From positions 1 to 44,342 of the forward strand of contig JAAYVZ010000134.1 of assembly GCA_012516935.1 (NCBI GenBank): a stretch of 44,342 bases of DNA, written 5' to 3'. Positions 105 through 5,438 of this stretch are shown piece after piece. Numbering within the stretch: the stretch's first letter is position 1; each line of letters starts with the position of its first letter. The notes under the pieces were generated by a model, which saw only the letters and a program-made list of their open reading frames with translations, was not told the origin of the DNA and made no database searches. Made by a program: the position numbers and the translations under genes. The DNA comes from Holophagae bacterium (lineage in GTDB: Bacteria > Acidobacteriota > Thermoanaerobaculia > Thermoanaerobaculales > Thermoanaerobaculaceae).

Positions 105-353
105 CTAATACCCGTCGCCCACCGTGCACTGTGCGCCAGGGAACACGTTGTTTCCGCTATGGCATACGTTAGCGCTGGGGAAATCACCCCCGGAACAATT
201 CCCACCAGTCGGATAGGAGCCGCCACCACATGAGCCTTGCCCGGGGTTGCCGGCAAAGGACCCGAAACGACAGACGCCGTGCAACGAGTCCTGGCCAGTT
301 GCCGTGCTTACCTGGTAGTTTCTGATTTCCGGCTTCACGAACTTCCGCTTCAT
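105..353 (-). CDS. Cys/Gly-rich RiPP precursor peptide (82 aa)
   Basis: Small gene at the 3' end of the radical SAM operon. The ATG at 353 has a strong AGGGGGA site 8 bases upstream, which rules out the longer in-frame ORF. The N-terminal 27 residues are Cys-free and begin MKRKFVKPEIRNY, a charged leader with an aromatic-x-x-Pro pattern like those bound by PqqD-type recognition domains. The rest is a Gly/Ser/Asn-rich core with five Cys (28, 42, 53, 64, 76) spaced 14, 11, 11 and 12 apart. The units are imperfect repeats such as CGGGSYPTGGN and CSGGDFPSANV. Every Cys is followed four residues later by Ser, Asp or Asn (C-x3-S/D/N). In known radical SAM peptides (CX3D ranthipeptides of the freyrasin type) such Cys form thioether links to the residue at +4. 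That the same chemistry happens here is inference. The peptide ends GDGY. Confidence 0.82.
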   Translation of the reverse strand: MKRKFVKPEIRNYQVSTATGQDSLHGVCRFGSFAGNPGQGSCGGGSYPTGGNCSGGDFPSANVCHSGNNVFPGAQCTVGDGY

Positions 354-435
354 GGCACGATCCCCCTTTTCTGCGGCTACGCTACACCGACCGTTGCAGG
401 GTGTCAATACCCCTGCATCGGTCGAGGTGCTCCGC

Positions 436-702
436 TCACGCCGGCATGGCCATCGAGCGTGAGAGCAAGCCCTCGATGAACTGCGCGGCATCGGCGCGGG
501 CAGCGGCGGGGTCTTCGACCTCGAACTCCTCCAGGACCTCGGCGACGATCTCCTCGGCGGAGCGGGTACCGTCCAAAAGAGTGCAGATGAAGGCGGCAGT
601 TTCGTTCAATACCTGAACATCGCCGGTGGCGGGGTCGAAGATGAGGCCGCCGTCGTTGTCCTCTCGGAAGACCAGGTCGGGGTTCAGCTTGAGCTTGCTC
701 AT
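436..702 (-). CDS. PqqD-like RiPP recognition protein (88 aa)
   Basis: Stand-alone PqqD-family protein, the type that grips a precursor leader and presents it to a radical SAM enzyme. The fold's hallmarks are visible: a short N-terminal strand (LKLNPDLVFRE), then FDPATGDVQVLNETAAFICTL, then the helical EEIVAEVLEEFEV and a last helix to residue 80. The length (88) is normal for the family. I chose the ATG at 702 because GGAGG lies six bases upstream; an ATG 18 bases further out has no such site. It sits 40 bases after the second radical SAM gene and 82 bases before the precursor gene, in one operon. A second PqqD-like domain is fused to the first radical SAM protein, so the cluster has two leader-binding modules. 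Confidence 0.88.
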   Translation of the reverse strand: MSKLKLNPDLVFREDNDGGLIFDPATGDVQVLNETAAFICTLLDGTRSAEEIVAEVLEEFEVEDPAAARADAAQFIEGLLSRSMAMPA

Positions 703-742
703 GACGCCTCCGGGGCGCATCGTAGCATGATGGTTAGCGCTC

Positions 743-1828
743 TCACGCGACCACGTTGTGGTGCTCGACGATGTACTTTTCGGGGAACAACCCCAGTTCC
801 TCAGCCTCAGCGCAGGTGCTGAAGGCACCGTACAGCTTGCCGATGGCGTGGAAGGTGTTGGCCACGCACTTGCCGAGGCAGGCGTTGCGGAAGATGCAGC
901 GGCCGCAGATGCCCCCGAGGCCCGCCGGCAGCTTCTCGCGCAGCGTGACCAGGGTGGGGTGAGTCTCCCAGACCTGCTTGATGCTGACCTGGCGAAGGTC
1001 GCCGAAGTCGAGCTCCGGCAGGTGCTCGCCGATGCCGCACAGGCCGGCGTGGCCGTTGTGGAGAACTCCCAGAATGCCGAGAATCCCACACGTCCCCACA
1101 CCGTTCCGCACGATGTCGCGCAGCGGAAGGAGCGCGGGCGGGAGGTCGAAGTAGAGCTTGAACCCGTTCTCGGACTCAGGCATGCGGGAGCGCACCTCGA
1201 GCACCTCGGGGAGCGAGAGCAGCTCGCCGTGCACACGCATCTCGTCCGAGCGGCCCATGCTGGCGATGACGTTGACCTTGAGGCTAGAGGCCCCGAGGCC
1301 CTGAACAAACGCCGGCATACCGGGCAGCAGCTCGGCGTTGCGCCGGTACAAGCTGCAGATGGTCTGGAAACGCAGCCCCTCGGCGCGGCATGCCGCCATC
1401 CCCTTGAGGGTTTTCTCGAACGAGCCGGGGACGTTGCGCAGGTCGTCGTGGATCTCGGGCGTGGGGCCGTCGAGGGAGATCGAGAAGTTTGCGTTGGCGG
1501 CTTTCAACGCCTTGGCCTCGCGCTCGCCGATCAGGGTGCCGTTGGTTTCCATGCGGACGCCCAGCCCCATTGCTGGCAGGTCGGCCAGGATCTCGAGGAT
1601 GTCGGGGTGGAGGAACGGCTCGCCGCCGGTGAGCTTGACGCAGCGCAGGCCGAGTTCTTTGGCCTGCTCGAAGACCGGCTTGAGCGCGCGCCAGGGCAGG
1701 TGCAGAGTCGAGCGCTGGCTCTCGGTGACGGGGTCGATCCAGCAGTGCCGGCAGCGCAGGTTGCAGCTCCCGGTCACGTAGAAGTAGATGGTGTTAAGGG
1801 GTGGGACGCGGCGGGGCTCAGTTGCCAT
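743..1828 (-). CDS. Radical SAM/SPASM peptide maturase (361 aa)
   Basis: Radical SAM enzyme expected to modify the precursor. The SAM-cluster motif C22-x3-C26-x2-C29 sits in GSCNLRCRHCW, and a GGEP-type SAM-binding motif (LTGGEPFLHPDI) follows at about residue 67. The C-terminus has an exact SPASM signature: a Cys pair with an intervening Gly (CGILGILGVLHNGHAGLC region), then C-x2-C-x5-C-x3-C-x17-C (CGRC ... NACLGKC ... STC). It therefore probably carries two auxiliary 4Fe-4S clusters, as in sactipeptide, ranthipeptide and quinohemoprotein peptide maturases. From memory the opening (PPLNTIYFYVTGSCNLRCRHCW) resembles the ScmF type of the SynChlorMet cassette, which also has two PqqD-like domains and two radical SAM proteins; this needs a search. 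The start overlaps the end of the upstream gene by 11 bases, implying coupled translation. Confidence 0.9.
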   Translation of the reverse strand: MATEPRRVPPLNTIYFYVTGSCNLRCRHCWIDPVTESQRSTLHLPWRALKPVFEQAKELGLRCVKLTGGEPFLHPDILEILADLPAMGLGVRMETNGTLIGEREAKALKAANANFSISLDGPTPEIHDDLRNVPGSFEKTLKGMAACRAEGLRFQTICSLYRRNAELLPGMPAFVQGLGASSLKVNVIASMGRSDEMRVHGELLSLPEVLEVRSRMPESENGFKLYFDLPPALLPLRDIVRNGVGTCGILGILGVLHNGHAGLCGIGEHLPELDFGDLRQVSIKQVWETHPTLVTLREKLPAGLGGICGRCIFRNACLGKCVANTFHAIGKLYGAFSTCAEAEELGLFPEKYIVEHHNVVA

Positions 1829-3236
1829 CCTTGGTGGCCTCCAAAAAGCGGCGGTAGCAGTCGGTCAGGTTGGCGCGGTTGACGTCGCCGAACTGCTCGT
1901 AGGCGAGCCCTGGGCAGCTCCCGTTGCAGTAGTCGTGCCACTCGCACCCCTGGCACTCCGGCAGGTCGCGCATGGCGATCGTGTGGCGCGAGCGCATCTT
2001 GGTGAGCACCGGATCCGATCGCCAGAGCTCCGGGATGCTGTCCTTTTCGATGTGGCCGAGCACCACGGTGGCGAGGATGCTGCACGGGGTGATCGTGCCG
2101 TCGTGGTTGACGGCGAGCTTCGAGAAGATGCAGCCACAGGCGGTCAGGTGCCCGGCGCGGTAGCTCGAGATCGCCGTGCCGGTCGCTCGGGCCTGCTCCA
2201 TCTCTCGGTGCATCTTGACCTTGGCCAGCGGGCCAGCGGTGGCGGTGATGCGGCCATCGTAACGGGTGGCCAGCCGCTCGAGCGTGCGCATCGCCTGTAC
2301 CTGCTGCTGCGGTGAGAGCGTGATGTCGCCCTGGTTGGAGCAGCCGGCGCCCATCGGCATGGCGTCGTTGGTCGAGAACGACGGCAGGCCGACGTCTTCC
2401 AGCAGCAGCTTGGCGGCGGCCTCGAGATCGTCGACGTTGTACTTGTTGACGGTGAGGCGGACGGTGAGCGGGAAACCCGCGTCCTTGAGAAGGCGGACGG
2501 CCCGCAGCGCGCGCTCGAACGAGCCCGCGCCACGGCTGGCGTCGTGCACGGCGGCGCACGAGCCGTCGATCGACACCTGGATCGAGCTCAGCCGCCGCCG
2601 CCGCGCTGGTTCGCACAGCTTCGTGATCGTGTCCTCGCGGATCAGCGTGCCGTTCGACAGGATCGAGTAGCGCAGACCGTTGGCCACCACGCAGTCGAGG
2701 AGCTCCCAGAGGTCCTTGCGGACGAACACCTCGCCGCCGGACAGGCAGACCGAGCGGGTGGGGAGCTTGCCGAGGGTCTCGAAAAAGCGCGTCCACTGCT
2801 CGGTCGAGAGGTCGTTGCGGCCGACCATCTCGTTGGCGAAGAAGCAGTACGAGCACGAGAGGTTGCACTTGCCGGTGAGGGCGACGTCCCACTCCCGGGG
2901 CGCGATCCCCGTCTCGCACCCCGGCCACACCGGCCGTATGCGTGTGCCGCGGGAGGGCTGCGCCAGCCCCTCCGACGCCAGCGATCCGGCCAGCTCGACG
3001 ACGTCGGCGAGCGCCTGCTCGGCGGTGCAGCCCTCGAACTCGGAGGCCAGCTCGCGGGCGACCTGCGACAGGCTCTGCTCGCCGTCGAGCAGCTGCCAGA
3101 TGAACGAGGCGGTCTCGTTGAGGTAGCGGGTCACACCGGAGTCGGGAGCGTACAGCTCGAAGCCGCTCTCGCCGATGGTGAAGGTACGAACACTCGGTTC
3201 GCGCATCCAACATGCGCCCGGTTCGATTGCGTTCAC
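1818..3236 (-). CDS. PqqD domain-radical SAM/SPASM fusion maturase (472 aa)
   Basis: First gene of the RiPP operon. Residues about 15-95 form a PqqD-like leader-binding domain (FELYAPDSGVTRYLNETASFIWQLLDG). They are followed by a radical SAM core with C124-x3-C128-x2-C131 in TGKCNLSCSYCF and a LSGGEVF motif. The C-terminal SPASM region has CGC, then PCS, then C-x2-C-x5-C-x3-C-x18-C (CQGC ... YCNGSC ... DC), close to the consensus. The probable function is installing cross-links in the precursor, alone or in sequence with the neighbouring maturase. I start at the GTG at 3236 because GGGAG lies six bases upstream; the first ATG of the open frame (3302) has no such site. A 13-codon ORF (3274-3233) ends on this GTG. 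Without experiments I cannot say which maturase does which step. Confidence 0.88.
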   Translation of the reverse strand: MNAIEPGACWMREPSVRTFTIGESGFELYAPDSGVTRYLNETASFIWQLLDGEQSLSQVARELASEFEGCTAEQALADVVELAGSLASEGLAQPSRGTRIRPVWPGCETGIAPREWDVALTGKCNLSCSYCFFANEMVGRNDLSTEQWTRFFETLGKLPTRSVCLSGGEVFVRKDLWELLDCVVANGLRYSILSNGTLIREDTITKLCEPARRRRLSSIQVSIDGSCAAVHDASRGAGSFERALRAVRLLKDAGFPLTVRLTVNKYNVDDLEAAAKLLLEDVGLPSFSTNDAMPMGAGCSNQGDITLSPQQQVQAMRTLERLATRYDGRITATAGPLAKVKMHREMEQARATGTAISSYRAGHLTACGCIFSKLAVNHDGTITPCSILATVVLGHIEKDSIPELWRSDPVLTKMRSRHTIAMRDLPECQGCEWHDYCNGSCPGLAYEQFGDVNRANLTDCYRRFLEATKDGN

Positions 3237-3274
3237 GGGATCTCCCACGCTCCTTCCGCGAAGCCTGTATTCAT
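3233..3274 (-). CDS. Possible 13-residue upstream ORF in RiPP operon leader
   Basis: Reads MNTGFAEGAWEIP and stops at a TGA that overlaps the GTG start of the radical SAM fusion gene (GTGA). It has a fair ribosome site (AAGGTGG about eight bases before its ATG). It could couple translation of the maturase, or be chance. No homology is claimed. Confidence 0.3.
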   Translation of the reverse strand: MNTGFAEGAWEIP

Positions 3275-3321
3275 TGTGCCACCACCTTGCTCTCGCGAGC
3301 AACCGCTCGGGGGGTGCGGAA

Positions 3322-3349
3322 ATTGTAGCACCATCCGAGCGCCATGCAA
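3322..3349 (-). promoter_or_regulatory. Promoter of the RiPP operon
   Basis: On the minus strand: TTGCAT (3349-3344), 16 bases, then TACAAT (3327-3322) preceded by TGC, an extended -10. Transcription would start near 3315, leaving an untranslated leader of about 80 bases before the GTG at 3236. Confidence 0.6.

Positions 3350-3605: not shown

Positions 3606-5438
<1,833 letters not shown>

Follow-up and report, generated by a model that had tools for sequence, protein, structure and literature searches.

One end of the window analysed here, a contig of 44,342 bases in full, carries four genes that form a divergent RiPP cassette of the Scm (SynChlorMet) type, and this family assignment is strong. 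The cassette is predicted, with a probability that I put at about 0.52, to make an exported peptide bearing a row of Cys-Gly alpha-thioether rings. For the Cys-Gly bond itself, which is read from a CxxG motif in the precursor sequence, I would give even odds.

The preliminary description had proposed a RiPP operon of four co-directional genes. These encode a PqqD domain fused to a radical SAM/SPASM enzyme, another radical SAM/SPASM enzyme, a stand-alone PqqD protein and, last, a precursor of 82 residues that is rich in Cys. All four parts are real and as described, all lie on the minus strand (Table 1), and the analysis supports the reading as a RiPP operon that encodes two SPASM maturases as well as two PqqD domains. 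The second enzyme bears the reported CX2CX5CX3CX17C signature exactly, and CX18C stands at the end of the first. Ten Fe-S cysteines (three radical SAM and seven SPASM) are invariant in both enzymes, in alignments with 18 relatives each. The gene for the second enzyme starts inside the end of the first, with an overlap of 11 bases, and a good ribosome-binding sequence lies upstream of the GTG start of the first (position 3236). Position 1 is the contig end and the contig stops 104 bases past the precursor, so anything beyond the precursor is missing. The contig's first 130 bases, used to seek the missing operon end, gave no overlap with another contig, and Rfam and tRNA scans across the window returned nothing.

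Table 1. Features of the cassette and its surroundings, in window coordinates.
Feature	Position	Strand	Basis or detail
Precursor peptide, 82 aa	105..353	-	leader about residues 1-20, then core with five CxxG units
CxxG unit 5, CTVG (Cys76-Gly79)	117..128	-	sequence
CxxG unit 4, CHSG (Cys64-Gly67)	153..164	-	sequence
CxxG unit 3, CSGG (Cys53-Gly56)	186..197	-	sequence
CxxG unit 2, CGGG (Cys42-Gly45)	219..230	-	sequence
CxxG unit 1, CRFG (Cys28-Gly31)	261..272	-	sequence
Putative leader	294..353	-	ends A-T-G before Q (small-x-small site)
Stand-alone PqqD/RRE protein, ScmD-like, 88 aa	436..702	-	TIGR04248; Pfam PqqD 1.4e-15
Radical SAM/SPASM enzyme, ScmF-like, 361 aa	743..1828	-	TIGR04251; model pLDDT 90
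PqqD-radical SAM/SPASM fusion, ScmE-like	1818..3236	-	472 aa from GTG 3236 or 462 aa from ATG 3206
PqqD/RRE domain fused to ScmE	2964..3155	-	Pfam PqqD 9.6e-14, residues 18-81
Perfect 16-base palindrome TTGCTCGCGAGAGCAA	3287..3302	.	between putative promoter and ScmE start
Extended -10-like element TGCTACAAT	3322..3330	-	sequence only
ABC exporter (membrane + ATPase)	3606..5438	+	divergent neighbour of operon

A resemblance to SynChlorMet had been suggested for these genes, and the search against RiPP family models bears it out. The best NCBIfam matches are ScmE for the fusion enzyme (TIGR04250, 7.5e-116, 386.9 bits against a cut-off of 400), ScmF for the second enzyme (TIGR04251, 7.9e-94, 314.9 bits, cut-off 400) and ScmD for the PqqD protein (TIGR04248, 1.2e-13, 51 bits, cut-off 100), that is, divergent members lying just below to well below the family cut-offs. 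A tree built from 123 enzymes separates the ScmE from the ScmF group with a support of 100, and the two enzymes of the window fall within the ScmE and the ScmF clade respectively. The window ScmF belongs to a clade of eight (support 99) with members from Chloroflexota, Myxococcota, Fermentibacterota, WOR-3 and Desulfuromonas; as this clade spans several phyla, the subfamily is spread out and is not a trait of the host lineage. A close ScmF was sought in 120 nearby genomes, relatives of the host, and found in none, and the cassette is therefore patchy.

The precursor matches no NCBIfam family, including the ScmA model (TIGR04252, cut-off 35 bits), and in Pfam it gives only a sub-threshold Gly-rich match. 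The ScmA model likewise returned nothing over its cut-off in 23 genomes, though their Scm clusters carry CxxG precursors. Compared with SynChlorMet as defined in NCBIfam (TIGR04248-TIGR04252: ScmA, C, D, E and F), the window is alike in having a CxxG precursor placed equivalently, but differs in that its ScmE, ScmF and ScmD score below cut-off, its precursor is invisible to the ScmA model, its ScmE has a PqqD domain of its own, and no ScmC is present in the assembled stretch. ScmC and a signal-peptidase-like protease may be lost in the window because of the contig end; a search for ScmC elsewhere in the host genome gave weak matches only. Taken broadly, the window carries an Scm cassette, with ScmD, with ScmE and ScmF enzymes that fall in their respective clades, and with a CxxG precursor that has a K.YxxP leader.

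The precursor reads MKRKFVKPEIRNYQVSTATG / QDSLHGVC...VGDGY. Its five Cys were described as spaced 11-14 residues apart, each followed at +4 by Ser, Asp or Asn; the gaps are indeed 14, 11, 11 and 12, with S, S, D, N and D in turn at +4. A further regularity had escaped the preliminary description, since all five Cys are followed at +3 by Gly. In shuffles of the window precursor, Gly at every +3 has a p value of 0.0014, and S/D/N at every +4 a p value of 0.0006. For the window alone, both patterns are thus improbable by chance; only the Gly rule holds in the relatives.

These relatives were collected by scanning genome contigs and by family searches in the host's phylum, an archaeal phylum, a deltaproteobacterial phylum and Omnitrophota, which together gave a set of 65 loci, the window and 64 others. 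Searching for the precursor by sequence in 60 relatives yielded chance-level matches only, and leader and neighbourhood were needed to find it. I therefore ran a leader-only profile of 18 columns on all short ORFs of the 65 loci, and counted the core residues; the profile was seeded with Cys-rich ORFs near ScmF, and a small number of the selected ORFs are spurious. The profile selects 69 ORFs in 54 of the 65 loci, with 355 core Cys. Gly stands at +3 after 303 of these 355, against 74 +/- 7.5 expected from shuffles, counts that are not independent draws because the precursors share descent and because of the way in which the profile was seeded. Another 27 core Cys, without Gly at +3, have it at +4 (CxxxG). 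For comparison, 65 loci that harbour other radical SAM enzymes were counted as controls: there Gly occupies +3 in 14%, and not one ORF attains 80%. Homologous clusters with a conserved Cys spacing, whose absence would have refuted the preliminary description on its own terms, thus exist, the same kind of precursor being present in 54 of the 65 loci with a Cys period of mostly 10-11 residues. Next to the top-scoring ScmF (714 bits, locus L204) lies an ScmA-type peptide of 60 residues in which all three Cys are in CxxG, so that the original Scm cassette likely follows the CxxG rule as well.

The residue after the Gly is far less constant. In the family cores it is Ser in 27%, Gly in 18%, Thr in 15%, Asn in 9% and Asp in 3.6%; Ser and Thr are enriched over their backgrounds of 12% and 9%, as is Asn, whereas Asp is not (background 4.5%). 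The CX3(S/D/N) motif that had been put forward does not survive as a family motif, since +4 varies and is often Gly. With Gly at +3 near-invariant and +4 variable, the pattern argues against a ranthipeptide link from Cys to the +4 residue and points to Gly as the acceptor.

In the pathway that I propose, the precursor would be held through its K.(Y/F)xxP leader by ScmD and by the PqqD domain of ScmE, and ScmE and ScmF, both radical SAM/SPASM enzymes, would then act on the row of CxxG units. Most likely, a thioether would form between each Cys sulfur and the alpha-carbon of a Gly standing three residues on (four in CxxxG), and the chain would carry a series of small, separate rings: five in the window precursor, and as many as nine in relatives. 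The CxxG spacing is compatible with the thioether of sactipeptides, from Cys sulfur to an alpha-carbon, and another sactipeptide trait, a radical SAM/SPASM maturase with an RRE/PqqD domain, is present here.

The closest precedent is streptosactin (StsA/StsB, also GggA/GggB), a sactipeptide in which separate alpha-thioether links join Cys31 to Gly34 and Cys25 to Ser28, i to i+3 (PMC8172795). It is alike in its Cys-x-x-Gly, its +3 acceptor, its un-nested rings and its radical SAM/SPASM maturase, but differs in having one maturase and two rings, and its links are established, where those of the window are predicted from sequence; the StsB model NF045574 scores 127.8 against a cut-off of 625. Thuricin CD is alike in using two radical SAM enzymes in one thioether pathway, and differs in having no CxxG repeats; its rings are nested hairpins with distant acceptors. 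Its TrnC and TrnD act as a complex (PMC12093266), and ScmE and ScmF may work as a pair in the same manner.

Fold searches were tried as a means of telling sactipeptide from ranthipeptide enzymes, and gave no separation. The nearest solved sequence to ScmE is the sactisynthase SkfB (2e-20), and in VIA-align the ScmE model scores Z 27.0 against SkfB, a tie with those for anSME and SuiB; Foldseek with the same model puts CteB first. The fold therefore leaves the choice between an alpha- and a beta-carbon link undecided, and the acceptor statistics carry the argument.

The conserved Gly could also serve in recognition or in a backbone turn, rather than as acceptor. On this alternative, which I consider rather unlikely, CxxG would be a recognition turn only, the enzymes would make some other change (a link outside the unit, an epimerisation or a carbon-carbon link), and the Cys would be free or disulfide-bonded. 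SPASM enzymes do catalyse many reactions, and SuiB, EpeE and TigE are among the fold matches. The bias of the residue after Gly to S, T, G and N also speaks for this alternative, and a pure Cys-Gly model leaves the enrichment of Ser and Thr there unexplained. Against this, Cys and Gly are co-conserved at a fixed distance while other core residues vary widely, which fits a donor and its acceptor best.

Ranthipeptide chemistry, with Cys joined to the beta-carbon of the +4 residue (S/D/N) and perhaps one enzyme acting on Asp and the other on Ser and Asn, was the earlier proposal, and the family data leave it improbable. All five sites of the window do have S, D or N at +4, the enrichment of Ser and Asn in the family agrees with it, and in fold ScmE comes close to CteB, a ranthipeptide synthase. 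However, a +4 Gly, as in 18% of the CxxG sites, has no beta-carbon, Asp stays at background, and in the CxxxG sites the next residue shifts to +5. The ranthipeptide maturase PapB needs a side-chain carboxyl (Asp or Glu) at Cys-X3, for which Asn is no substitute (PMC8172795), and such an acceptor is found in two of the five units of the window precursor. Freyrasin and the PapB ranthipeptides are alike in their tandem Cys units, one nearby acceptor for each, and a SPASM enzyme, but differ by their strict Cys-X3-Asp/Glu acceptor, a rule that is absent here; the PapB model reaches 71 bits against a cut-off of 340. The remaining alternative, a secreted Gly- and Cys-rich peptide whose Cys bind a metal or Fe-S cluster while the radical SAM enzymes act on another substrate, would accommodate the Cys- and Gly-rich composition, the probable export and the extra CxxC-like Cys in L214 and L237, but is very improbable given that a PqqD-binding-type leader is common to all precursors, that the precursor genes lie within enzyme cassettes (54 of 65 loci), and that CxxG is not a known spacing for metal sites.

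Returning to the proposed Cys-Gly thioether pathway, the other genes of the cassettes suggest how its product may be released. The K.(Y/F)xxP-type leader is common to the window precursor and the precursors in 54 loci. At the leader end, small-x-[GA] is present in 60 of 64 precursors (38 by shuffle), and its extension small-x-[GA]-Q in 19, where shuffles give 2.7. A small-x-Gly/Ala end conforms to the -3/-1 rule for signal peptidases, which suggests that a signal-peptidase-like protease cuts the leader at the small-x-small site, ATG/Q in the window. Such a protease is usually encoded in the cassette, a signal-peptidase-I-related protein like those of L030, L038 and L119 being found in 45 of the 65 loci, along with PqqD/ScmD in 61, ScmE in 60, ScmF in 64 and ScmC (HprK-like) in 43; ten loci have more than one precursor. 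The adjoining ABC transporter, in which no C39 peptidase domain was seen, probably exports the peptide; relatives of it occur in 12 further Scm loci at 41-55% identity, and in L028 at 87%. As for ScmC, the HprK-like lasso-peptide kinase PadeK phosphorylates its own precursor peptide, and by analogy it may be speculated that ScmC phosphorylates the Ser and Thr enriched after Gly.

Upstream of the operon, a single extended -10 promoter had been claimed. The element TGCTACAAT is present, but a consensus promoter scan found no full sigma-70 site and missed this element too, and it is not conserved in L028, the 82%-identical relative; the promoter therefore stays putative. The palindrome TTGCTCGCGAGAGCAA is identical in L028, though the surrounding intergenic DNA has diverged, and appears operator-like.

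The Scm cassette is named in NCBIfam, but its chemistry seems to have been worked out by nobody, and no paper was found in the open library on SynChlorMet, on CxxG with radical SAM enzymes, or on Methanocella RiPPs. From the CxxG rule follows a single chemical prediction for this cassette that can be tested, and the rule unites over 50 clusters from Chloroflexota, Myxococcota, Omnitrophota, Fermentibacterota, WOR-3 and archaea of the methanogen group. Should the predicted rings form, the family would rank among the most widely distributed cross-linked peptides outside Firmicutes, and would offer a natural scaffold with many small rings on a single chain. I also advance, tentatively and with some doubt about the whole, a joint reading as a widespread, chemically undescribed RiPP class of bacteria and archaea, with three to nine separate Cys-Gly alpha-thioether rings of four or five residues, an ScmE/ScmF pair, possibly Ser/Thr phosphorylation by ScmC, and release by a dedicated signal-peptidase-like protease.

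Several individual loci deserve mention. The host genome holds a second Scm-type locus (L118, contig C174, 1-5320), with a five-CxxG precursor (2887-3192, minus strand), an ScmF of 437.8 bits, over the NCBIfam cut-off, a PqqD-bearing protein of 245 aa, an HprK-like protein and a signal-peptidase-like match; an ScmE of its own was not found in the host assembly. In L028 (4100-4939), the contig of the nearest relative, GC falls from about 60% to 40% right after ScmD and the precursor is absent. This contig looks chimeric and, like the window, breaks near the expected place of the precursor. The precursors of L119 (10379-10750), L208 (8374-8709) and L220 (91-468) mix CxxG with CxxxG (CTSSG, CSSSG, CTTSG) in one chain, and are a natural test of whether the position of Gly sets ring size. 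Two precursors in L214 (7345-7704 and 8605-9309) have 14 Cys each past the leader, with extra Cys outside CxxG that possibly make additional links or a metal site. Finally, L121 (1-5240) and L122 (1-6933) have extra radical SAM and PqqD genes beside the Scm locus, which perhaps represent a related but different pathway; in L121 a small Cys/Gly-rich ORF (1326-1514) has a K.WxxP leader and few CxxG.
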